Source: Candidatus Halobonum tyrrellensis G22
GTDB lineage: Archaea; Halobacteriota; Halobacteria; Halobacteriales; Haloferacaceae
DNA: 64,000 nucleotides
Reading direction: 5' to 3'
Assembly: GCF_000495475.1 (NCBI RefSeq)
Contig: NZ_ASGZ01000002.1
Coordinates: forward strand, 1 to 64,000
Shown: positions 43,886-55,956 of the stretch, piece after piece
How positions within the stretch are numbered: position 1 is the first letter of the stretch
How the letters are laid out: every line of letters begins with the position of its first letter
Program-made: the position numbers and the translations under genes
The notes under the pieces: model-generated
The model's input: only the letters and a program-made list of their open reading frames with translations
Told to the model about the DNA's origin: nothing
Database searches by the model: none

Positions 43886-45121
43886 TCAGAACTCCCCGTT
43901 GACGATGGCCGAGACCCGATCGCGGTCGAACAGCGGTTCGTCGCCGAACGCGTCGGGGTAGAGTTCCCGTGCGGCGTGTTCGAGTTGAAAGAGGTGAATG
44001 ATCGGTCCCTGGTAGGTCAGCCCGCCGTAGATCACGCGGTCCTCTCGGACGGCGGTGAGTTCGCTCGCCACCTCGTGGTCCTCCAGGTGCGAGACGACGT
44101 TCTCCTGGAAGTACTCCTCGGAGGTCTCGCCTTGGATCCTGACGACGATGGCGTCGGGGTCGATATCCAGGAGCGTCTCGAAGTCGACCGTCCCGCCGCC
44201 GGCCTGCGCGTCGGTGATACCGTTCCGTGCGAGCGCGTCACCCACCCCGAGGTCGCGCCACTGCTTCGACTGACCGCCCTCGCCGACGAGGTAGGGGTAG
44301 AACGTCTCGGGCGGGATCTCCGCGGGGTAGAGGACCGCGATGTCGGGTCTCTCCGCCGGGAGCGCCTCCTCGACGGTCGCGAGCACCTCGTCGTGGTACG
44401 ACGCGAACGCCTCGTAGCGCTCGCGCTCCCGAAACACCTCCGCGACCTTCTCGAACGCCTCGTACAGCGAGTAGTAGCGGTAGTCGTGCCAGTCGTACAC
44501 GCGCGTGAATATCGTGTTGCCGACGAAGGGGGCGACGTTCCCGCGGATCTCGTCGACGTCGGACTCGCTCCACCCCAGCCGGTTCACCACGAAGTTGGGG
44601 TCGATCAGGTGGACGTCCGCGTCGAGTTCGTAGAACACCTCCTTGCCGGTGCCGTCCTGCCAGAGCTGAGTCAACTCGCTCGCGTCGACCGAGACGCCCG
44701 ACAGTTCCTCGTAGTGGTGGGTGCCGTAGCGGGCGCGGACGCCGATCGCCGACAGCCCGTCCGCCTGTCCGAGCGCGACCCCCATGTCCGCGTAGTCCGC
44801 CGTGTACGGGACCCACGTCTCGGGGACCGCGTCGAACTCGACGGTGCCCACCGGTTCCATCGTCACCGAGTAGCGCCCGCCGTCCGCGTCCGTGGCGGAC
44901 TCCTCGGTCCCGGTTTCGGTTCCGGTTCCGGTCTCGGTTCCGGTCGCCGGCGCGGGTTCGGTCGTCCCGGTCGGCGCGTCGGTCGACCCGCCCTCGCTCG
45001 TTTCGACCGTCGATCCGCCGCCGTCGCCGGCGCAGCCAGCGAGGAGTCCGCCGATACCGACGCCGGCTCCCGCTTTCAGGAACCGACGCCGCGTCGCGTC
45101 GTCGCTCGGTCGTCGCGTCAT
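43886..45121 (-). CDS. Iron-siderophore ABC transporter lipoprotein SBP 1
   Basis: A 411-residue extracytoplasmic substrate-binding protein (TroA/FepB fold). The Tat lipoprotein signal is TRRRFLKAGAGVGIGGLLAGC, with the lipid-attached Cys about residue 31, then a Thr/Glu/Gly repeat linker (TETGTGTETGTEES). The C-terminal region shares YQGPIIHLFQLEHAARELYPD and LFDRDRVSAIVNG with four paralogues to the right but is shorter, lacking a 12-residue acidic insert. ATG 45121 is 3 nt from an iron-box-like palindrome. It is the only one of the five on the minus strand. Confidence 0.85.
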   Translation of the reverse strand: MTRRPSDDATRRRFLKAGAGVGIGGLLAGCAGDGGGSTVETSEGGSTDAPTGTTEPAPATGTETGTGTETGTEESATDADGGRYSVTMEPVGTVEFDAVPETWVPYTADYADMGVALGQADGLSAIGVRARYGTHHYEELSGVSVDASELTQLWQDGTGKEVFYELDADVHLIDPNFVVNRLGWSESDVDEIRGNVAPFVGNTIFTRVYDWHDYRYYSLYEAFEKVAEVFRERERYEAFASYHDEVLATVEEALPAERPDIAVLYPAEIPPETFYPYLVGEGGQSKQWRDLGVGDALARNGITDAQAGGGTVDFETLLDIDPDAIVVRIQGETSEEYFQENVVSHLEDHEVASELTAVREDRVIYGGLTYQGPIIHLFQLEHAARELYPDAFGDEPLFDRDRVSAIVNGEF

Positions 45122-45124
45122 GTT

Positions 45125-45138
45125 TTCGGCTAGCCTAA
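45125..45138. promoter_or_regulatory. Iron box A
   Basis: TTCGGCTAGCCTAA (minus strand TTAGGCTAGCCGAA), a dyad between the TATA region and the SBP 1 start. Matches the palindrome found at seven other places in 45.1-54.1 kb; a DtxR/SirR/Idr-type metal repressor site is inferred. Confidence 0.65.
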
Positions 45139-45264
45139 ACACGGCAAGTACGTTTCGATCCGACGCCGCGCCGCGCCCCGGTGTCGACCGACACGGCGCG
45201 TCTCGACGGTCGTTCGGGACGAATACGGTCGTCTCACGCCGCTCGACCGAAACGGATATACTGG

Positions 45265-45280
45265 TTTAGGAACCCCTAAA
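45265..45280. promoter_or_regulatory. Iron box B
   Basis: TTTAGGAACCCCTAAA, arms TTTAGG/CCTAAA, 4 nt before the GTG of SBP 2. The TATA-like GGATATACT (45254-45262) lies 23-30 nt before the start, so the box covers the promoter start region. Confidence 0.65.
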
Positions 45281-45284
45281 CGAC

Positions 45285-46571
45285 GTGCCAGACGACAACG
45301 TTCGAGACCGCGGGACGACGCGGCGCGAGTACCTGAAGTACGGCGGTGCGGTCGCAGGCGGCGGGTTCCTCGCGGGCTGTTCGAGCGGCGGCGGCGGATC
45401 GACGACCGGCGCGGAGTCGACCACCGCGGACGCGACGGGGACCGATGCGGCCGAGACGACCGCGGACGCGACGGGGACCGACGCGGAGTCGACCGCCGAG
45501 ACGGCCGCGGGCGACAGCTACACCGTGTCGATGTCGCCGGTCGGCGAGGTGGAGTTCCCCGCCGTCCCGGAGAACGTGATGGTGTACAGCCAGCTGTACG
45601 CCGACATGGCGGTGGCGTACGGCGCGGGCGACGCGGTCAACTCGATCGGGTTCAGCGCCGACGCCGCGGGGGCGCTGACCGCCTACTACGCGAAACTCGA
45701 CGGCGTCGAGTTCGACCGCGAGGGGCTCGCGCAACTCAACAGCGGCGGGTCGGGGAACATCCAGGTGTCGAAGGAACTGCTGTACGAACTCGACTCGGAC
45801 CTCCACCTGATGGACCCCGCGCTGATGCTGTCGTTCGACGGCTGGGAGATGGCCGACATCGAGGAGGTCCGCGAGAACGTCGCGCCGTGGTTCGGCAACG
45901 TCTACAGCCGGCGGAACACCGAACCGCCCGAGCCGTACCGCGACGACTACGAGTACTACACGCTCTGGGAGATCGCGGACAAGGTGTCGCAGGTGTTCCA
46001 ACAGCGGTCGCGCTACGAGGAACTCGCGTCGATCCACGACGGGATGCTCTCTGAGATCGAGTCGAACCTGCCGGCGGAGGAGGAGCGGCCCGCGGTGGGT
46101 TCGGTGCTGTACATGAGCGAGACGTTCTACCCCTCGAAGATCAACACCGAGGGGTTCGCCACCGCGCACGTCCGGCCGCTCGGCGCGAACGACGCGTTCG
46201 TCGGCGAGGACGTGACCTACGAGACGTCGTACGACTTCGAGACGCTCCTGGAGATCGACCCGGACGTGATCCTCCACCGCTACGGCGTCGGCGACTACTA
46301 CGACGTGAGCGCGATCCGCGAGGAGATCGCGGACCACCCCGTCGGCGGCCAGTTGTCCGCCATCGAGAACGACCGCTTTTACGCCTCGGCCGACCCGGTG
46401 CAGGGGCCGCTGATGAACCTGTTCCAGTTGGAGATGACCGCCAAACAGCTCTACCCCGAGCAGTTCGGCGAGTGGCCCGAGTACGACGGCGGAGCGTACC
46501 CCGAGATTCCCGAGGGAGAGCGACTGTTCGACCGCTCGCGCGTCGCGTCGATCGTGAACGGGGAGGCCTGA
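45285..46571 (+). CDS. Iron-siderophore ABC transporter lipoprotein SBP 2
   Basis: A 428-residue Tat lipoprotein substrate-binding protein. The signal is TTRREYLKYGGAVAGGGFLAGC. A Thr/Ala/Asp linker contains two copies of the phrase TADATGTDA. The mature body has FNLDP-like DSDLHLMDPALM, DYEYYTLWEIADKVSQVF and the paralogue ending NLFQLEMTAKQLYPEQFGEW then LFDRSRVASIVNG. It begins with GTG. Divergent from SBP 1, with an iron box immediately upstream. It would deliver ferric siderophore to the FecCD-type permease at 51.8 kb. Confidence 0.85.
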   Translation: MPDDNVRDRGTTRREYLKYGGAVAGGGFLAGCSSGGGGSTTGAESTTADATGTDAAETTADATGTDAESTAETAAGDSYTVSMSPVGEVEFPAVPENVMVYSQLYADMAVAYGAGDAVNSIGFSADAAGALTAYYAKLDGVEFDREGLAQLNSGGSGNIQVSKELLYELDSDLHLMDPALMLSFDGWEMADIEEVRENVAPWFGNVYSRRNTEPPEPYRDDYEYYTLWEIADKVSQVFQQRSRYEELASIHDGMLSEIESNLPAEEERPAVGSVLYMSETFYPSKINTEGFATAHVRPLGANDAFVGEDVTYETSYDFETLLEIDPDVILHRYGVGDYYDVSAIREEIADHPVGGQLSAIENDRFYASADPVQGPLMNLFQLEMTAKQLYPEQFGEWPEYDGGAYPEIPEGERLFDRSRVASIVNGEA

Positions 46572-46592
46572 CGAGTCGACTCCCGGCCGCTG

Positions 46593-46644
46593 TTTTAGGC
46601 TGGCCAAAAGATCGGAACCCCTATTAATAATTAGGCGGGCCTAA
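46593..46644. promoter_or_regulatory. Iron boxes C and D with TATA between them
   Basis: TTTTAGGCTGGCCAAAA (46593-46609) and TTAGGCGGGCCTAA (46631-46644) flank the TATA-like CTATTAATAAT (46621-46631). Box D ends 5 nt before SBP 3 ATG. A repressor on both would block the transcription machinery. Confidence 0.7.
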
Positions 46645-46649
46645 ACCGC

Positions 46650-47906
46650 ATGGTACGAGACGACGAAGCGCGACCGGGGCACACCCGACGCGACTGGATG
46701 AAGTACGGCGGCGCGCTCGTCGCCGGCGGCCTGCTCACCGGCTGTACGGGCGGCGACTCCGAGTCCACGCCCACCGGGGCGGCGGCGGAGGCGACCACCG
46801 GCGAACCGGTTACGGCGACGCCCGCCGACGCGGCCGCGGAGACCACGGCGGAGTCGACCGAGAGCGGTTCCTACGAGGCGTGTCTCTCGCCCGCCGGCTG
46901 CGTCGAGTTCGCGGAGCCGCCGGGGAGCGTGCTCACGATCCTCCCCCACCACGCGGACATGGCGACCGCGGCCGGCCACGGAGATGCAGTCGACGCGATG
47001 CTGTACAACCCCGGCTACAACGGGACGATCTGGAGCAAGTTCCTCGAACGCCTCCCCGGCGTCTCCGTCGAGTGGGCCGACCTCCCCGGGGAGTGGAACC
47101 CGAGCAAGGAGTTCCTCTACGAACTCGACGCCGACCTCCACCTTGACGACCCCGCGTACATGACGACGATGGACGCCTGGACCGCCGGCGACATCACGGA
47201 GGTCACCGAGAACGTCGGCCCGTGGTTCGGCAACACCTTCAGCAACGCCAACAAGCAGCCGCCGGGCGAGTGGGCGGAGGGGTACGAGTACTACACGCTG
47301 TGGGAGATATTCGAGCGGGTCGCGCAGGTGTTCCGAGCCGAGGAGCGGTACACGGCACTCAAGCGCGTCCACGACGAGATGCTCTCGACGGTCGAGTCGA
47401 ACCTCCCGTCCGAGGACGAGCGGCCATCGGTCGCTATGATCATCCTCTCGCAGGCGGAGGACAGCATGTGGGTGTACGCGCTCAACGGTCCGGGATTCCT
47501 AACCGCTCACACCCGGCCGCTGGGTGCGACCGACGTGTTCGCCGACGTCGAGACCGAGTCGACGGTCGGATACGAGGGACTCCTGGAGGCCGACCCCGAC
47601 GTGATCCTGTGTCTCGCGGGGATGTCAGACCAACGCCACGTCTCGAAGACCCGCGAGCGGTTCGAGGACGACCCGACGGCGCAGTCGGTGTCGGCAGTGG
47701 AGGACGAACGGATCTACACCCAGGGCGGGCGGAACCAGGGCCCGCTGATGAACCTGTTCCAGACCGAGATGGCGGCGAAACAGCTCTACCCCGAACAGTT
47801 CGGCGAGTGGCCCACCTACACCGAGGGACCGTACCCCGAGATCCCCCCGGAGGAACAGTTGTTCGACCGCGAACGGGTCGCGGACATCGTGACCGGAGCG
47901 ACCTAA
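46650..47906 (+). CDS. Iron-siderophore ABC transporter lipoprotein SBP 3
   Basis: A 418-residue Tat lipoprotein SBP with signal RRDWMKYGGALVAGGLLTGC and a Thr/Ala linker. It shares ELDADLHLDDPAYM, GYEYYTLWEIFERVAQVF, NLFQTEMAAKQLYPEQFGEW and LFDRERVADIV with its paralogues. It starts an operon: SBP 4 follows its stop by 2 nt. Two iron boxes flank the promoter. Ligand is probably a ferric siderophore; differences in the pocket between paralogues suggest different siderophores. Confidence 0.85.
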   Translation: MVRDDEARPGHTRRDWMKYGGALVAGGLLTGCTGGDSESTPTGAAAEATTGEPVTATPADAAAETTAESTESGSYEACLSPAGCVEFAEPPGSVLTILPHHADMATAAGHGDAVDAMLYNPGYNGTIWSKFLERLPGVSVEWADLPGEWNPSKEFLYELDADLHLDDPAYMTTMDAWTAGDITEVTENVGPWFGNTFSNANKQPPGEWAEGYEYYTLWEIFERVAQVFRAEERYTALKRVHDEMLSTVESNLPSEDERPSVAMIILSQAEDSMWVYALNGPGFLTAHTRPLGATDVFADVETESTVGYEGLLEADPDVILCLAGMSDQRHVSKTRERFEDDPTAQSVSAVEDERIYTQGGRNQGPLMNLFQTEMAAKQLYPEQFGEWPTYTEGPYPEIPPEEQLFDRERVADIVTGAT

Positions 47907-47908
47907 CT

Positions 47909-49189
47909 ATGAACGACGACACCACCCGGCGCGAGTACGTGAAGTACGGCGGGGCGGTGGTCGGAGCCGGCATCCTCGCGGGCTGTTCGGGCGACGGCGG
48001 GGAGTCGACGACGGGGTCGGACGCGACCGAGTCGGCCGACCCGACCGATCCGGCGACCGAGTCGGCGACGGCGCCCGCGACCGACACGCCCGACGGCGGT
48101 GACGACGGGACCGGGGAGGAGTCGTACGCGGTGACGATGTCGCCCGTCGGCACCGTCGAGTTCGACGCGGTGCCGACGAACTTCCTGACGTACTACCCGC
48201 TATCGGCGGGAACCGCCGTCGCGCTGGGTCACGGCGACTCCATCAACGCCATCGGGTACGACAAACAGCTGTTCGGCGACACGGTCGACTACTACTACGA
48301 CAGCCTCGACGGCGTCTCGTTCGACTGGGAGGGGCTCGGCCGCGTCACGCCGAGCGGCGACCCCGGGTCGCTCGACGCGGAACTGTTCTACGAACTCGAC
48401 AGCGACGTTCACTTCCTCGACCCGTGTCTCCTCCGGAGCAGTTCGTTCGGGTGGAGCGAGAGCGAAATCGACGCGCTGGCCGAGGACATCGGCCCGTGGT
48501 TCGGCAACTACTACAGCCGGACCGACGCTCGGCCGCCGGAGCCGTGCCGCGACGACTACGAGTACTACTCACTGTGGGAGTACATCGGCAAGATCGCCGC
48601 CGTGCTCCGGGAGGGGGAGCGGTACCGGGCGTTCAGGTCGCTACACGGGGAGGTCATCGGGCGGATCGAGTCGGCGCTGCCGCCCGAGTCTGAGCGACCG
48701 ACGGTCGCGGTCGTCGCCTACAGCGGCGGGACGTTCTGGCCGTACGACTTCACGGGTGACGGCTACCTCTGGGCGCACGTCCGCCCGTTCGGGGTGACGA
48801 ACGCGTTCACGACCACCGATGTCGCTCCCGGCGCGGACGGCTCGTACGACTACGAGGCGCTGGTGGAGGCGGAGCCGGACATCGTCTTGCGCTACTGGGG
48901 GACCGCGCTCGGCGACTCGTTCCTCGACAACCGCGCGGAGGTGCTCGGAGACGCGCTCGCGTCCGAGGTGCCCGCGTTCCGGAACGGGCGGTACTACGCG
49001 TCGGGCAACGGGATGCAGGGGCCGGTCACGAACCTCTATCAACTGGAGATGACCGCGAAGCAACTGTTCCCCGAGCGGTTCGGCGAGTGGCCCGGCTACG
49101 GGGACGGCGAGTCGTACCCCGCGATCCCCGAAGGCGAGCGGCTGTTCGACCGCGAGCGGGTCGTGAGCATCGTGAACGGGGATCTCTGA
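47909..49189 (+). CDS. Iron-siderophore ABC transporter lipoprotein SBP 4
   Basis: A 426-residue Tat lipoprotein SBP. The signal TTRREYVKYGGAVVGAGILAGC is encoded by a 60-bp stretch identical to that of SBP 5. The linker is Thr/Ala/Asp-rich. The body has DSDVHFLDPCLL, DYEYYSLWEYIGKIAAVL, NLYQLEMTAKQLFPERFGEW and LFDRERVVSIVNG. ATG 47909 is 2 nt from the SBP 3 stop, and no iron box intervenes, so it is the second gene of that operon. A Shine-Dalgarno is not obvious. Confidence 0.85.
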   Translation: MNDDTTRREYVKYGGAVVGAGILAGCSGDGGESTTGSDATESADPTDPATESATAPATDTPDGGDDGTGEESYAVTMSPVGTVEFDAVPTNFLTYYPLSAGTAVALGHGDSINAIGYDKQLFGDTVDYYYDSLDGVSFDWEGLGRVTPSGDPGSLDAELFYELDSDVHFLDPCLLRSSSFGWSESEIDALAEDIGPWFGNYYSRTDARPPEPCRDDYEYYSLWEYIGKIAAVLREGERYRAFRSLHGEVIGRIESALPPESERPTVAVVAYSGGTFWPYDFTGDGYLWAHVRPFGVTNAFTTTDVAPGADGSYDYEALVEAEPDIVLRYWGTALGDSFLDNRAEVLGDALASEVPAFRNGRYYASGNGMQGPVTNLYQLEMTAKQLFPERFGEWPGYGDGESYPAIPEGERLFDRERVVSIVNGDL

Positions 49190-49250
49190 CGGGACACCGC
49201 CGGCGGCTCCCCCCGCGGCGAGCCGGGGAGATAGGAACCACTATCACGGA

Positions 49251-49264
49251 TTAGGCGAGCCTAA
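49251..49264. promoter_or_regulatory. Iron box E
   Basis: Perfect-arm palindrome TTAGGCGAGCCTAA, identical to box G, ending 5 nt before SBP 5 GTG. An upstream GGAACCACTATCACGGA patch resembles the promoter segments before boxes D and G. Confidence 0.7.
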
Positions 49265-49269
49265 GAATC

Positions 49270-50544
49270 GTGCCATCGAACGACACCGACGAGCAGGACG
49301 CGACGCGGCGCGAGTACGTGAAGTACGGCGGGGCGGTGGTCGGAGCCGGCATCCTCGCGGGCTGTGCGGGCACCGACTCGCAGTCCACGACCGAGTCGAC
49401 GCCCGCCGAGACGGCAACCGGGACCGGGACGGCAGTGACCGCCAGTCCGACCGAGACGGCGTCAACGGCCGCCGCGATGGACCCCGTCGGCGAGGTGTCG
49501 TTCGAGACGGCGCCGGAGTCGTGGGTCGGCGGGTTCGGGTTCACCGCGGACGTGTTGACCGCACTCGGCCACGCCGACGGCGTCGCGGGCATGCTCGGCC
49601 CGTCGTACTGGTTCCAGGGCTTTTACGACCGGATCGGCGTCTCGGCGCCGTCCCCCGACGAGGTGACGAAGGTCACGAGCGAGGACTGGTCGATCCTCGC
49701 CGAGGAACTGTACGAACTCGACCCCGACGTGGTGGGGGTCGACCCGAACGTGTTCCTCTATTACGGGCTCTCCACCGAGGAACTCGGGCGACTGACCGAC
49801 GAGGTCGCTCCGTTCTTCGGCAACGCCAGCCGTCGCACGCGCGTCGAGGGGTGGCCCGACTGGCCCGACGGGGCGTACGACTACTACGACATCCCATCGT
49901 TCATCCGCCGGTACGGGCGGGCGTTCGGCGAGACCGAACGGGCAGCGGCGCTCGTCGACACGTACGAACCGGCGCTGGCCGACATCACCTCGCGGGCGCC
50001 CACGGGGTCGGACCGACCCACGGTCGGCCTGCTGAACGGCCGCTACAACCCCCAGAACCGCGACGGGTTCGTCGTCTACGACCCGGCGTCCGAGATCGAC
50101 AGGACGTACGGGAAGAAACAGTACCGCGACCTGAACGTCCGCGACGCGTTCGCGGGCGTATACGACGGCCAGTCGAGCGTCACCGTCGGCTACGAAGCGC
50201 TGCTCGAACACGACCCCGACGTGATCGTCTTCCACCTCGGCGTCTCCCACCGCGACCTCGGCGGGGAGAACTACGTCCAGCCGACGGTCGACCTCCTGTA
50301 CGACAACTCGGTCACGAGCCAGGTCACCGCCGTCGAGGAGGACGCGCTCTACGTCGGCGGAACGCCGTACCAGGGACCGATCGTCAACCTCTTCCAGACC
50401 GAGATGACCGCCAAACAGCTCTACCCCGACGAGTTCGGCGCGTGGCCGGGGTTCTCGGCGGGGGAGTCGTACCCGGATATCCCCGCCGACGAACGGCTGT
50501 TCGACCGCGAGCGACTGGCCGCCATCGTCGCCGGCGACCGCTGA
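49270..50544 (+). CDS. Iron-siderophore ABC transporter lipoprotein SBP 5
   Basis: A 424-residue Tat lipoprotein SBP starting with GTG. Signal ATRREYVKYGGAVVGAGILAGC, Thr/Ala linker, then the TroA-like body: ELDPDVVGVDPNVFL, RRYGRAFGETERAAALVDTY, NLFQTEMTAKQLYPDEFGAW and LFDRERLAAIVAG. It is the most divergent in the middle region although its signal-peptide DNA is identical to SBP 4 over 60 bp. It has its own promoter and iron box. Confidence 0.85.
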   Translation: MPSNDTDEQDATRREYVKYGGAVVGAGILAGCAGTDSQSTTESTPAETATGTGTAVTASPTETASTAAAMDPVGEVSFETAPESWVGGFGFTADVLTALGHADGVAGMLGPSYWFQGFYDRIGVSAPSPDEVTKVTSEDWSILAEELYELDPDVVGVDPNVFLYYGLSTEELGRLTDEVAPFFGNASRRTRVEGWPDWPDGAYDYYDIPSFIRRYGRAFGETERAAALVDTYEPALADITSRAPTGSDRPTVGLLNGRYNPQNRDGFVVYDPASEIDRTYGKKQYRDLNVRDAFAGVYDGQSSVTVGYEALLEHDPDVIVFHLGVSHRDLGGENYVQPTVDLLYDNSVTSQVTAVEEDALYVGGTPYQGPIVNLFQTEMTAKQLYPDEFGAWPGFSAGESYPDIPADERLFDRERLAAIVAGDR

Positions 50545-50608
50545 CCGGCCGCCCGAACGGCGGAGAGTGACCGAGGCGGCATCAGCGATGGAAAACCCAC
50601 ACGTTCGA

Positions 50609-50658
50609 TTTAGGACAGCCGAAAATGGGAAGTCCTATTAACGATTAGGCGAGCCTAA
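50609..50658. promoter_or_regulatory. Iron boxes F and G
   Basis: TTTAGGACAGCCGAA (50609-50623) and TTAGGCGAGCCTAA (50645-50658) flank a TATA-like CCTATTAAC (50634-50642), the same layout as boxes C and D. Box G ends 5 nt before ATG 50664. Confidence 0.7.
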
Positions 50659-50663
50659 CAGTC

Positions 50664-50797: not shown

Positions 50798-51793
50798 GTG
50801 AGCGACCGAGGGCGGGGGGGACCGACCGACGGCGACGCCGGACAGGGGGCCGGGTCCGGATCCGAGGCGACCGACTACGACCGCGACGTGGTCGTCGTCG
50901 GCGGGGGACCGGCGGGCTGTTCGGCGGGCGTGTTCACCGCCAGGGACGGGCTCGACACCGTCGTCTTCGACCGGGGACGCTCGTCGATCCAGCGGTGTGC
51001 GTACCTGGAGAACTACCTCGGCTTCCCCGGCGGGGTCGACATCGAGACGCTGTACGGCCTGATGCACGACCACGCCGAGGCGGCGGGCTGTGACGTGGTC
51101 GCGGACGTGGTCGAGTCGGTCGAGCGCGCCGACGAGGGGGGACCGGGAGGGTTCGTCGTCCACCTCGGGGAGGGCGACCCCGTCACGGCGCGGCGCGTCG
51201 TGGCCGCGACCCGCTACGACGGCGAGTACATGCGCGGACTCGACGACGACGACGCGATGTTCGAGACGCACGACCACGGCGACGAGACCCACGAACAGTT
51301 CGACACGGCGTACGCCGACGACGACGGCACGACGCCGGTCGAGGGGCTGTACGTCGCCTCGCCGTCGGCGGAGGCGAACCGACAGGCGGTCATGGCCGCC
51401 GGTCGGGGCGCGCGCGTCGCGGTGACGCTGGTCGAGGCGGTCCGCCGCGAGCGGGGGTACCCCGAGGCGCTGGCGAACCACTACGACTGGCGACGGCGGG
51501 AGGCGGAGCTGTCGGGCGAGTGGGCCGACCGCGACCGCTGGCGGGAGTACGTCGACGGGCGGATCCCCGACGACGCGGACCTCGACGACGACCGCCGGGT
51601 CGAACTGCGCGAGCGGGCGATCGACCGCCGGTTCGACCAGTACCTCGACGACGACGAGGTCGACCGCCGGACCCGAGCGGGCCACGAGCGGCTGCTCGAA
51701 CACGTCGACGACGACGCGATCGTGGCGGCCGCCCGCGAGATCGAAGCCGAACGCGGGACGACGCCCGCGGAGTCGGCCGGGGGAGGTGAGTGA
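50798..51793 (+). CDS. FAD-dependent pyridine-nucleotide oxidoreductase, thioredoxin-reductase-like
   Basis: A 331-residue protein with an N-terminal FAD Rossmann motif VVVVGGGPAGCSAG (31-44) and CAYLENYLGFPGGVDI (67-82), typical of thioredoxin-reductase-like enzymes, then a GLYVASPSAEANRQAVMAAG FAD-contact segment. The redox-active CxxC is missing and the NADPH domain is not clear. The C-terminal third is acidic and helical. Its place between iron box and permease suggests a ferric-siderophore reductase or siderophore-modifying enzyme (inference). GTG start follows a small ORF by 2 nt. Confidence 0.72.
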   Translation: MSDRGRGGPTDGDAGQGAGSGSEATDYDRDVVVVGGGPAGCSAGVFTARDGLDTVVFDRGRSSIQRCAYLENYLGFPGGVDIETLYGLMHDHAEAAGCDVVADVVESVERADEGGPGGFVVHLGEGDPVTARRVVAATRYDGEYMRGLDDDDAMFETHDHGDETHEQFDTAYADDDGTTPVEGLYVASPSAEANRQAVMAAGRGARVAVTLVEAVRRERGYPEALANHYDWRRREAELSGEWADRDRWREYVDGRIPDDADLDDDRRVELRERAIDRRFDQYLDDDEVDRRTRAGHERLLEHVDDDAIVAAAREIEAERGTTPAESAGGGE

Positions 51794-51796
51794 GCC

Positions 51797-52957
51797 GTGG
51801 CGAGCGAGTCGGTGTCGCCCGGGTCGGCCGCCGAGGACGGCCGCGACTGGCTCTGGTGGCTCGACGGGAAACTCGCGGGCGTCTGTGTCGCGAGCCTCCT
51901 GGTCGTGGTCGCCGGCGGGCTCGTCCAGGTGAGCTTCGGCGCGTACACGATGTCGATCGTCGAGGCGTGGCAGGCGGTGTTCAACCCCGACGTGCTGTTC
52001 AACGCCGACGCGTGGCGGGCGTTCCTGCTGGGGGGCGAGGTACCCGAGATGAACCGGCGGAGTCTCATCGTCTGGAACATCCGCCTGCCGCGGGTGTTCG
52101 TCGCGGCGCTCGTCGGGATGAACCTCGCAGTCTCGGGCGCCATCTTCCAAGCGATCACGCGGAACGAACTCGCGAGCCCGTTCATCCTCGGCGTCTCGTC
52201 GGGCGCGGGGTTGATGATCCTGCTCGTCCTCGTGGTGTTCTCGGGGGTGACGCTGGTGATCCCGTACGTCTTCGGCACGCTCGTGCTCGGGGTGTCGTCG
52301 CTGTTGCCGGTGATCGCCTCGCTCGGCGGCATCGGCGCGTTCCTGATCGTCTACGTGATCGCGTGGAAGAACGGCACCTCCCCGATCCGGCTGGTGCTCG
52401 CGGGCGTCATCGTGGGCACCGTCTTCCAGTCGCTCCAGACGGGGCTGTTCTTCTTCGCCGACGACCTGGGCGTGGTCCAGTCGGCCATCGCGTGGACCAC
52501 CGGGTCGCTGACCGGCACCGACTGGGAGCAGGTCCGGATGGCGGCGCCGTGGACGGTGCTGGCGATGGTGCTCGCGCTGGTGAGCGCCCGGCAGTTGAAC
52601 GTGCTCCTGCTCGGCGAGAGCACCGCGAAGGCGCTCGGCATGTCGGTCGAGAAGGTCCGGTTCGCGCTGTCGGGCGTGGCGGTGCTCGCGGCGGCCGCGA
52701 GCATCGCCGTCGCAGGCATCGTGGGCTTCGTCGGCCTGATCGTCCCGCACATGGTCCGGAACGTCGTCGGGAGCGACTACAAGAAACTCGTCGTCGGCTG
52801 CGCGTTCACCGGTCCGGCGCTGATGGTCGCGGCCGACGTCGGCGCGCGGCTGGCGTTGAACCCCGTCCAGATACCCGTCGGCATCGTGACCGGACTCGTC
52901 GGCGGGCCGTACTTCCTGTACCTGATGCGGAAACAGCAGACCATGGGTGAGATCTGA
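51797..52957 (+). CDS. FecCD-type iron-siderophore ABC permease
   Basis: A 386-residue membrane protein with about ten helices, of the BtuC/FecCD fold. Signature segments are NIRLPRVFVAALVGMNLAVSGAIFQ and FVGLIVPHMVRNVVGSDYKK (the coupling region). A 40-residue acidic N-terminus precedes the first helix. GTG 51797 starts 3 nt after the oxidoreductase stop and ends overlapping the ATPase start (TGATG). It is the only permease in the island and so probably serves all five binding proteins as a homodimer. Confidence 0.88.
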   Translation: MASESVSPGSAAEDGRDWLWWLDGKLAGVCVASLLVVVAGGLVQVSFGAYTMSIVEAWQAVFNPDVLFNADAWRAFLLGGEVPEMNRRSLIVWNIRLPRVFVAALVGMNLAVSGAIFQAITRNELASPFILGVSSGAGLMILLVLVVFSGVTLVIPYVFGTLVLGVSSLLPVIASLGGIGAFLIVYVIAWKNGTSPIRLVLAGVIVGTVFQSLQTGLFFFADDLGVVQSAIAWTTGSLTGTDWEQVRMAAPWTVLAMVLALVSARQLNVLLLGESTAKALGMSVEKVRFALSGVAVLAAAASIAVAGIVGFVGLIVPHMVRNVVGSDYKKLVVGCAFTGPALMVAADVGARLALNPVQIPVGIVTGLVGGPYFLYLMRKQQTMGEI

Positions 52958-53964
52958 TGAACGACGACTACGTCACCGAGAACTGGAACGAGACCGAGAC
53001 CGAACGCGAACCCGAGACGCGGACCGACGGCGGCGAGTCGGTGGCTGTCGCCCCCGAGACCCGCCAGCGGAGCGGGGAGTCCCCCGGCGGCCCGGACGGA
53101 CCCGGCCGCTCGGGCGAGTCCGAACGGTCGGGGTGCGAGTTCGCGGGCGAGGAGTTGGTGATCGGCTACTCCTCGGGCGAGGAGCCGGTGATCGACGGCG
53201 AGACCCTCCGGGTCGAACCCGGCGAGGTGACCGCGCTCGTGGGACCGAACGGCAGCGGGAAGAGCACCCTCCTGAAGGGGCTGGCCGACCAACTCTCGAT
53301 CCGGAACGGCCGGGTCCTCCTCGACGGGGACGACGTCTACTCGCTTTCGGCCAAGGAACTCGCGAAACGGCTGGGCCTGCTCTCACAGGAGAACGTCTCG
53401 CCGAACAGCATCCCGGTCGAGAAACTCGTCGAACACGGCCGGTACCCCCACCGCGGGTTCTTCGACTCGCTGACCGACGAGGACCGCGAGGCGATCGACC
53501 GCGCCATCTCGCTGGCGGGCGTCGACCACCTCCGCGACCGCGAGGTGGGTAGCCTCAGCGGCGGACAGAAGCAGTTGGTGTGGATCGCGATGGTGCTCGC
53601 CCAGGAGACGGACGTCCTCCTGCTCGACGAGCCGACGACGTTCCTCGACCTCCACCACCAACTCGAAGTGATGGAGATCGTCGAGACGCTGCGCGACGAG
53701 AGCGACATCACCGTGGTGGTCGTCCTCCACGACATCGACCAGGCGGCGCGGTACGCCGACCACATGGTCGCGCTCAAGGACGGCTCGATCCGCGCACAGG
53801 GCGCGCCCGACGAGATCGTCACCGAGGAACTGCTCGCCGACGTCTTCGAGATCGAGGCGGTCGTCGAACCCACCGCGTACGGCCCGCAGATCACGCCGCT
53901 CCACCCCCTCCACGACGAGCACAGCCACGGGTCGGACACCCCCCGCCCGGGCGACGGCTCGTAA
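52957..53964 (+). CDS. Iron-siderophore ABC transporter ATPase
   Basis: A 335-residue FecE/FepC-type ATPase. Walker A is GPNGSGKST (96-104), the Q-loop is SQENVSP, the signature is SLSGGQKQL (about 195), Walker B LLLDEPTTFLD (about 215-225), and the switch His is VLHDIDQAARYAD. A 60-residue acidic, disordered N-terminal extension precedes the domain, and the C-terminus ends in a His/Asp-rich tail (HPLHDEHSHG). It is co-translated with the permease. Confidence 0.9.
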   Translation: MNDDYVTENWNETETEREPETRTDGGESVAVAPETRQRSGESPGGPDGPGRSGESERSGCEFAGEELVIGYSSGEEPVIDGETLRVEPGEVTALVGPNGSGKSTLLKGLADQLSIRNGRVLLDGDDVYSLSAKELAKRLGLLSQENVSPNSIPVEKLVEHGRYPHRGFFDSLTDEDREAIDRAISLAGVDHLRDREVGSLSGGQKQLVWIAMVLAQETDVLLLDEPTTFLDLHHQLEVMEIVETLRDESDITVVVVLHDIDQAARYADHMVALKDGSIRAQGAPDEIVTEELLADVFEIEAVVEPTAYGPQITPLHPLHDEHSHGSDTPRPGDGS

Positions 53965-54070: not shown

Positions 54071-54088
54071 TTTTAGGTGTGCCTAAAA
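54071..54088. promoter_or_regulatory. Iron box H
   Basis: TTTTAGGTGTGCCTAAAA, 7-bp arms, ends 3 nt before ATG 54092. It is downstream of the ATPase gene and in front of two uncharacterised genes, so these appear to belong to the same iron regulon. Confidence 0.7.
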
Positions 54089-54091
54089 CAC

Positions 54092-54214
54092 ATGCGTACC
54101 GACACGGACGAGAACGCGACGGTCGACCGGGGCGCCCGCGTGGCGTCACGTCGACCGTCCCGGCCGACCGGCGTCGGCCCGGCGGCCGGTCGACCCCGGG
54201 AGGAGGGGAGGTAG
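54092..54214 (+). CDS. Candidate 40-residue small ORF behind iron box H
   Basis: ATG 54092 follows the palindrome by 3 nt, the place where the binding-protein genes begin relative to theirs. The peptide starts acidic (RTDTDENATVD) and ends Arg/Pro-rich. A GGAGG-like run at its end (GGGAGGAGGGGAGG, 54199-54212) could act as ribosome-binding site for the next gene, whose ATG is 6 nt after the stop. Real small protein or leader; not distinguishable. Confidence 0.45.
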   Translation: MRTDTDENATVDRGARVASRRPSRPTGVGPAAGRPREEGR

Positions 54215-54220
54215 CGAGGG

Positions 54221-55159
54221 ATGGTGGGGACCACGCTCACCGAGATCCGCGAGCACATCGAGTCGCTCGCCAGCGACGACGGGTCGTTCTACCTCGTCTG
54301 CGGGCGGACGGGCGAGCGACCGGTCCCCGCGGCGGGCGAGCGGTTCGACGGGCGCGCGACTGCGCGGGCGGCGCTGCGGGCGACCGAGCAGTACCGGACC
54401 GCGCTCCGGCGGTACGACCCACAGCTCCCCTACTACGACCTGATCGTCTGCGAGGACACGCGGCCGGCCGCGACGGCGGTCCCGCCGGACGCGAGGTCCG
54501 AGCGGGAGGCGGCACCGGCGACGGGGTCGGACGCCGGAGCGGCCGCGGAGTCGGGGACGGAGCCGTCGGCCGACCCGGAGCGGCGGCGGCTGGTCGAGTT
54601 CTGCCACCGCGTCGCGGCGGCGGTGTTCGAGACGCTGTCGGACGCGGAGTACGACGGGGTCGAGACCGCCGTCATGGACGCGTACTTCGAGTTGGCGGAG
54701 ACGCTGGCCGACCCGGACGACCTCTGTCTCTGCCTGCTGGAGTGTACGGCGGCGGAACTCGACGCGCGGCTCACCCCCGCCGAGCAGGCCGACGTGCTCT
54801 CGCGTGCGGTCACCCGACTGACGCCGGTCGAACCCGCCGACGACCCGGTTTCGGCGACGTTCGACCGCCTCCAGCGGCTGGGACTGGTCGGGGAGTACAG
54901 CCGCTCGCCCGCCGCGGTCGATATCGACGCCGGGGTGCGGACGGTCGTGGTCCACCTCTCCGAGTACGCGCTCTCGCCGCGCGAGGGCCGGCTGCCGGTG
55001 CTCCCGGTCGCGTTCGACCTCTACCGCCAGCGGCGCGACCCGCCCTCGCGGTTCCGCGTCTCCCGGGTCGGCGACGGCTGGCGCGTCGTGTTGACGTTCG
55101 CGGACGGGGAGCGCGCCCCCGACGGGCTGGCGAGCGTCCCGATCCGGTCGGAGGGGTGA
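54221..55159 (+). CDS. Uncharacterised protein under an iron box (DUF7551-like)
   Basis: A 312-residue soluble protein. The N-terminal 90 residues have HIESLASDDGSFYLVCGRTG and AARAALRATEQYRTALRRYD, ending in YYDLIVCEDTRP; a low-complexity Ala/Ser/Glu linker (about 90-125) follows; then a helical domain with CHRVAAAVFETLSDAEYDGVE and VMDAYFELAE, and a beta C-terminus. I recall similar haloarchaeal proteins of unknown function, paired with the next gene. Its start is preceded by a strong purine-rich ribosome site. Iron regulation is inferred from box H. Confidence 0.7.
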   Translation: MVGTTLTEIREHIESLASDDGSFYLVCGRTGERPVPAAGERFDGRATARAALRATEQYRTALRRYDPQLPYYDLIVCEDTRPAATAVPPDARSEREAAPATGSDAGAAAESGTEPSADPERRRLVEFCHRVAAAVFETLSDAEYDGVETAVMDAYFELAETLADPDDLCLCLLECTAAELDARLTPAEQADVLSRAVTRLTPVEPADDPVSATFDRLQRLGLVGEYSRSPAAVDIDAGVRTVVVHLSEYALSPREGRLPVLPVAFDLYRQRRDPPSRFRVSRVGDGWRVVLTFADGERAPDGLASVPIRSEG

Positions 55160-55956
55160 CGGTGGGGGTCGAGACGCACGTCGACCGCGCGCGCGATCGG
55201 GTCCGTACGGAGGTGGACGCGCTCGACGCCAAGTCCGCGGCGTTCGAGACGTTCCTCGCCCGCGTGAAACGCCTCCCGCCGGAGCCGACCCCGCGGTCGT
55301 CGGCGGTGGCGGCGACCGGCGGGACCGACGCCCGCTTGCGCGCCGACGGGGCGACCGACGAGGGGTGTCGGGCGGTCCGGACCGCGTTCGACGAGACGGT
55401 CCGCTCGCACAGCGTCGCGGACGTCGAGACGCCGGAGCCGCTGTTGGAGACCGTCCGCAGCGAGTTCACCGACTCGATCGCACTCGCGCTCGCGCCGACG
55501 ACCGACACGTCGTTCTCCGCGGGAGTCAAGCGCGCGGTCGTCGCCGAGACCGAGACGCGACGGCGCGAGACGGCGGCGCTCCGTCGGGCGCTCGACCGCG
55601 AGGCGGAGAGCCTCGCGGCGGCCGCGGCGGCCGTCGACGAGGTGACCACCTGGGTCGTCGAGGCGGACGAGCGGCCGCTGACGGACTGCGGATTCGACGC
55701 CCTGCGGCGGCGGCACGCGACGCTCGCCGCCCACCGCGAGCGGTGTGAACGGGTCGCCGCCGACCGGCAGGTCCACCTCGACGGGACCACCGCCGCGGCG
55801 GAACTCGACACCGCGGTGACACACCGCGCGCTCCCCCCGTACCTCTACGACGACTTCCCCACCGACTACCCGGTGTTGTCGACGGTCGCCCGCCTCGACG
55901 ACACCTGCGCCGACTGCCAGCGCGCGGTCCGCGGCCACCTGGTCCGGCGGGCCTGA
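55156..55956 (+). CDS. Uncharacterised helical protein, DUF7260-like
   Basis: A 266-residue mainly helical protein. GTG 55156 overlaps the stop of the previous gene (GTGA). It has long Arg/Glu/Ala helices (ETETRRRETAALRRALDREA), a middle motif SHSVADVETPEPLLETV, and a Cys-rich end DDTCADCQRAV. It matches a widespread haloarchaeal family of unknown function (DUF7260 from memory). A terminal CADC could bind metal. The pair with the previous gene is behind an iron box here, which is the only clue to function. Confidence 0.72.
   Translation: MTVGVETHVDRARDRVRTEVDALDAKSAAFETFLARVKRLPPEPTPRSSAVAATGGTDARLRADGATDEGCRAVRTAFDETVRSHSVADVETPEPLLETVRSEFTDSIALALAPTTDTSFSAGVKRAVVAETETRRRETAALRRALDREAESLAAAAAAVDEVTTWVVEADERPLTDCGFDALRRRHATLAAHRERCERVAADRQVHLDGTTAAAELDTAVTHRALPPYLYDDFPTDYPVLSTVARLDDTCADCQRAVRGHLVRRA

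Follow-up and report, generated by a model that had tools for sequence, protein, structure and literature searches.

A predicted iron-starvation operon in Candidatus Halobonum tyrrellensis G22 encoding DUF7552-DUF7551 and DUF7260 proteins, with a tentative role in siderophore iron release

Two overlapping genes of Candidatus Halobonum tyrrellensis G22, encoding a DUF7552-DUF7551 protein and a DUF7260 protein, are predicted to belong to a DtxR/FerR-type iron regulon, and this placement is well supported by the iron boxes that precede the genes and their relatives. The genes lie in a stretch of 64,000 nucleotides (contig NZ_ASGZ01000002.1, positions 1 to 64,000), referred to here as the window, and the coordinates of the relevant features are given in Table 1. 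Leyn and Rodionov are said to have described the haloarchaeal DtxR/FerR iron regulon in 2015. The haloarchaeal regulators FerR, TroR, Idr, and SirR are of a known iron-regulon type, as cited in PMC11349517. The TroR/Idr/SirR regulon of Haloferax volcanii resembles the present system in its palindromic box before siderophore ABC-transporter genes, its DtxR-family regulator, and the position of the box right at the start of leaderless genes, but differs in that the members described here are uncharacterised DUF proteins whose iron response is predicted from the boxes. DUF7551, DUF7552, and DUF7260 were named in no paper of the literature searched, a search that lay outside the primary regulon papers, and those papers may already list the genes among the hypothetical members of the regulon.

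Table 1. Coordinates of the iron boxes, mini-ORFs, and genes considered in the window.
Feature	Position	Strand	Remarks
Iron box of a siderophore-binding lipoprotein gene	45264..45281	.	Gene at 45285-46571; box 3 nt before its start
Iron box of the operon for the TrxR-like protein, FecCD permease, and ATPase	50643..50660	.	Partner box at 50608-50625
Mini-ORF of the TrxR-like operon, 43 codons	50664..50795	+	Starts 3 nt past box; stop 2 nt before TrxR-like start
FAD-only thioredoxin-reductase-like (TrxR-like) protein	50798..51793	+	Without NADPH domain and without CxxC
FecCD-type siderophore permease	51797..52957	+	
ABC ATPase of siderophore importer	52957..53964	+	
Iron box (DtxR-type operator) of the gene pair	54071..54088	.	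Perfect palindrome TTTTAGGTGTGCCTAAAA; 0 mismatches
Mini-ORF of the gene pair, 40 codons	54092..54214	+	Starts 3 nt past box; TAG at 54212-54214, 6 nt before DUF7551 start
312-aa gene, DUF7552 (aa 5-79) and DUF7551 (aa 124-308)	54221..55159	+	Pfam
266-aa gene, DUF7260, helical bundle	55156..55956	+	Pfam; GTG start, 4-nt GTGA overlap with preceding gene

The original prediction, made from the sequence alone, had described a palindrome 3 nt before a 40-codon ORF followed by two coupled genes of 312 and 266 residues, and each of these elements was recovered, with the ATG of the short ORF at 54092 and the two genes joined by a GTGA overlap. The box has the form TTTTAGGN4CCTAAAA. Across the window, 9 box matches were found at no more than 3 mismatches versus 0.07 expected from shuffles, and of the 9 sites present in the whole 3.68-Mb genome at no more than 2 mismatches, 5 fall inside the window. 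Boxes of the same type had also been claimed for the siderophore-uptake transcripts to the left, and these were located at 45123, 45264, 46593 with 46629, 49249, and 50608 with 50643. The box at 54071 is single, a second box 36 bp away being absent. Matches to PF01325 above the cut-off identified DtxR-family regulators in the genome, of which 2 were strong and are encoded elsewhere in the genome.

The distribution of the box was then compared among relatives, which occur in 113/171 (P0001) and 153/171 (P0002) of the family's genomes; in a sample of 392 genomes from the class, 218 carry DUF7551. The loci sampled comprised 60 neighbourhoods, 17 distant DUF7260 paralogues, 20 distant DUF7551/DUF7552 loci, and 80 named loci, and their genes were called with a custom codon-usage script. 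A box was counted if it had no more than 3 mismatches in total and no more than 1 in the core, and if it was located at the head of the gene's operon or inside it, upstream of the gene. By this measure, DUF7552-DUF7551 genes were boxed in 42/44 cases from the family set and in 64/67 from the named loci (106/111 jointly, the two sets sharing some genomes, so that the joint count covers partly overlapping samples). DUF7260 genes in DUF7551 loci were boxed in 26/29 and 19/21, and stand-alone DUF7552 genes in 3/3 and 2/2. The background among other genes of the same loci was 12%, distant DUF7260 paralogues were boxed in 2/13, and a DUF7551 paralogue clade found beside potassium-transport genes was boxed in 0/18. 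The presence of a box in homologues elsewhere had been set beforehand as the comparative test of the iron-regulon reading, and these counts come down in its favour. On a FastTree tree the box label required 4 changes versus about 20 after label shuffling; details of this tree are unsafe owing to long branches, and the paralogue clade lacks boxes throughout.

In the first step of the explanation proposed here, an Fe(II)-loaded DtxR-family repressor would occupy the 54071 box and block the promoter, and low iron would relieve the block. Repression of this kind is very probable, because the boxes are conserved well above background and are missing from the paralogues, because the box label clusters on the tree, and because a DtxR-type regulator with an Fe_dep_repress domain is co-operonic in relatives and two strong DtxR-family matches are present in the genome. 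The recurrent gene order in relatives is the box, one or more optional siderophore-binding proteins, an optional TrxR-like flavoprotein, DUF7551, DUF7260, and a DtxR-type regulator of about 130 residues, which is sometimes followed by an amphi-Trp protein. In some of these loci dpsA (Pfam Ferritin) is located close by. DUF7260 directly follows DUF7551 in 35 of 129 copies.

The second step concerns translation. In 64 of 74 siderophore-binding protein genes the start codon is 2-3 nt past the box, as leaderless mRNAs would be expected to show, and the DUF7551 start is located farther from the box, at about 20-250 nt. Among non-redundant DUF7551 leaders, a start codon 1-5 nt past the box was present in 19/32 and absent in 13/32, and in 12 of those 19 the mini-ORF stop lay from -12 to +4 relative to the DUF7551 start, versus a mean of 5.7 in shuffles preserving base composition only, not dinucleotides (0/2000 shuffles were as high). 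The same abutment of stop and start was found before stand-alone DUF7552 genes (4/4) and TrxR-like genes (4/6, including the one in the window), and in Halobacterium hubeiense a 53-codon ORF annotated in RefSeq ends 1 nt before DUF7551. The mRNA would start at or just before the ATG of the mini-ORF, on which ribosomes would load and then terminate at 54214, and re-initiation would take place at the DUF7551 start and again at the GTGA overlap of DUF7260. The 40-codon ORF is probably a leaderless translation entry, and the full relay, which is drawn from the layout, is on balance favoured because of the binding-protein starts next to the box, the excess of abutting stops, and the re-initiation at overlapping genes documented in Haloferax volcanii (PMC6728339). 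The arrangement is similar to that termination-reinitiation in its overlapping or abutting stop and start codons, and differs in having as its upstream ORF a short mini-ORF of unconserved sequence that begins directly after an iron box (PMC6728339). Such a layout would explain how iron-box promoters, which are suited to leaderless mRNAs, can drive genes that start away from the box.

It is possible, if somewhat doubtful, that the 40-codon ORF is instead an untranslated chance frame in the leader and that initiation at DUF7551 is independent of it, with the GGAGGAGGGGAGG stretch ahead of the start as one candidate site. The mini-ORF peptide is unconserved and Arg-rich, unlike haloarchaeal proteins, a purine-rich stretch immediately precedes the DUF7551 start, and the start codon is missing in some Haloferax leaders; however, the stop-start abutment recurs above chance, the annotated ORF of Halobacterium hubeiense ends against DUF7551, and SD motifs are not used at the 5'-UTRs of H. 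volcanii (PMC3986360). A conserved leader peptide was ruled out by tblastn, the mini-ORF peptides differing between relatives. Two of them, located before DUF7551 in L200 and before the TrxR-like gene in L074, resemble by eye the Tat/lipoprotein signal start of substrate-binding proteins, and this resemblance suggests that some mini-ORFs may be remnants of binding-protein genes that have otherwise been lost, retained as sites of ribosome entry.

The two proteins had been reported to have no recognised domain. This proved wrong, as all three Pfam families matched far above their curated cut-offs (DUF7552, 127 versus 27 bits; DUF7551, 237.8 versus 52.6; DUF7260, 256.6 versus 27), although the function of all three is uncharacterised, and relatives on public plasmids, where annotated, are called hypothetical proteins. 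Residues C27, C128, H129, E137, and C169 were invariant across 58 DUF7552-DUF7551 proteins from both clades. In DUF7260, H187, C197, H223, C251, C254, and H261 were 82-100% conserved in 28 iron-group proteins and unconserved in 8 distant paralogues; the CADC motif noted earlier at the end of the second protein (C251/C254) is real and conserved in the iron-box clade. From this conservation, the Cys/His residues of DUF7551 and DUF7260 may bind iron or another metal. AlphaFold2 models of both proteins were confident (mean pLDDT 89.5 and 89.2), that of the first being mixed alpha/beta with two domains and that of DUF7260 a bundle of long helices, and both products are probably cytosolic. Foldseek comparison of both models with solved structures gave nothing at an E-value of 0.001 or better, sequence searches of the PDB, run both with individual proteins and with profiles, gave no match for either protein, and searches of NCBIfam and PHROGs gave no useful match. 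The low-ranking Foldseek matches of DUF7551 included several with the V4R / H-NOX fold of DmpR, MopR, and soluble guanylate cyclase (E-values 0.09-0.3, low TM-scores); a profile comparison of DUF7551 with 4 V4R proteins gave no similarity and did not support the likeness. The DUF7260 gene is split by a frameshift or stop in L086 and L123, which suggests that it is dispensable in those genomes.

The steadiest partner of DUF7551 is the TrxR-like flavoprotein, because it is adjacent in both iron and non-iron settings, adjoining 46 of 129 DUF7551 copies (29 upstream and 17 downstream). The protein of the window aligned only with the FAD-domain parts of thioredoxin reductases, and its relatives were mostly 245-340 aa in length, with a single nucleotide-binding motif and a CxxC in 0/52. 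IruO is a TrxR-like protein of Staphylococcus aureus that acts as a reductase on Fe(III)-hydroxamate siderophores (PMC10294844). Of its features, the FAD-binding TrxR-like domain was found in the protein of the window and the NADPH-binding domain was not, so this protein is not an ordinary reductase. In both systems the gene for a TrxR-like FAD fold accompanies iron-uptake genes behind an iron-responsive operator (PMC10294844), and they differ both in the NADPH domain and in the DUF7551/DUF7260 counterpart, which is absent from the IruO system. Under denitrification, Haloferax mediterranei represses the gene for an 'NAD(P)/FAD-dependent oxidoreductase' (log2FC -4.06), which lies beside genes for an iron ABC permease and ATPase, along with other iron-uptake genes (PMC11218638), and we infer that this oxidoreductase gene is of the same type.

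In the third step, the DUF7552-DUF7551 protein would work with the FAD-only TrxR-like protein, encoded adjacent to it or in the same regulon, and the helical DUF7260 protein, with its Cys/His set confined to the iron clade, would serve as a metal-binding partner. Most likely, these proteins would free iron from ferric siderophores after import, bind it, and hand it on within the cytosol. This role is put forward tentatively, by analogy with IruO and its reduction of Fe(III)-hydroxamate siderophores, and because the flavoprotein adjoins DUF7551 in both clades and the conserved Cys/His/Glu residues include some specific to the iron clade. Of the roles originally proposed for the pair, storage was not retained, no ferritin-like match having been found among solved structures for DUF7260; the safe reading is a part in the response to iron starvation, and siderophore or iron processing appears to fit the genomic partners best. 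The three steps taken together, as an explanation of an iron-starvation operon, are given slightly less than an even chance. A further reading, unlikely on present evidence, unites the pair and the flavoprotein in a new kind of haloarchaeal complex that would extract iron from ferric siderophores and whose translation would be tied to iron-box promoters by the leaderless mini-ORF relay. We know of no mechanism by which haloarchaea free iron from imported siderophores, and iron-boxed, widely conserved proteins whose Cys/His residues are invariant and which have a flavoprotein as their steady partner are concrete candidates for that step.

The 19 box-less DUF7551 paralogue loci (L145-L163) have a fixed order, with TrkH-TrkA-SRPBCC divergent from DUF7551-TrxR-CoaBC. 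The pairing of DUF7551 with TrxR in these loci, which have no siderophore context, is the chief caution: the chemistry common to both settings is not necessarily directed at siderophores and may be a general redox function that the iron response has recruited. In its specific form, in which DUF7551 and the FAD protein are a redox or repair module whose thiol/flavin reaction sustains an enzyme when Fe-S or heme proteins fail, this explanation is rather unlikely: the paralogue pair beside TrkAH, the SRPBCC protein, and CoaBC speaks for it, but the DUF7260 partner and specific Cys/His residues of the iron clade, together with the repeated siting inside siderophore-uptake operons, point to iron itself. 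That DUF7551 and DUF7260 tune an adjacent DtxR-type repressor, for instance by iron or redox sensing rather than bulk iron handling, is quite unlikely, for although many loci have a DtxR-type gene after the pair and 22 carry one nearby, a metal-dependent regulator is annotated beside it in Haladaptatus, and the conserved Cys/His residues could form a sensor site, the DtxR gene is often missing from the operon (in the window it does not directly follow the pair), DUF7551 pairs with the flavoprotein also in loci without a DtxR gene or box, and Pfam shows no DNA-binding or known sensor domain in either protein.

Several minor features of these loci were also recorded. Tandem iron-box pairs are frequent, with a start-to-start distance of 36 bp, as at 46593/46629 and 50608/50643 in the window and in loci L065-L141 and L195-L274; among 131 box spacings of no more than 120 bp, 88 were exactly 36 bp and 117 were 34-37 bp. 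Five siderophore-binding lipoprotein paralogues are encoded in series at 43886-50544, with a single FecCD permease and a single ATPase for all of them. A large DUF5059-plastocyanin protein (Pfam match for L076) is encoded between the box and DUF7551 in L076, L079, and L080. Elsewhere in the same genome (L142:15671-18172), a further iron box is located just ahead of the gene for an 833-aa lipoprotein, which is about the size of the DUF5059-plastocyanin protein of the other loci.
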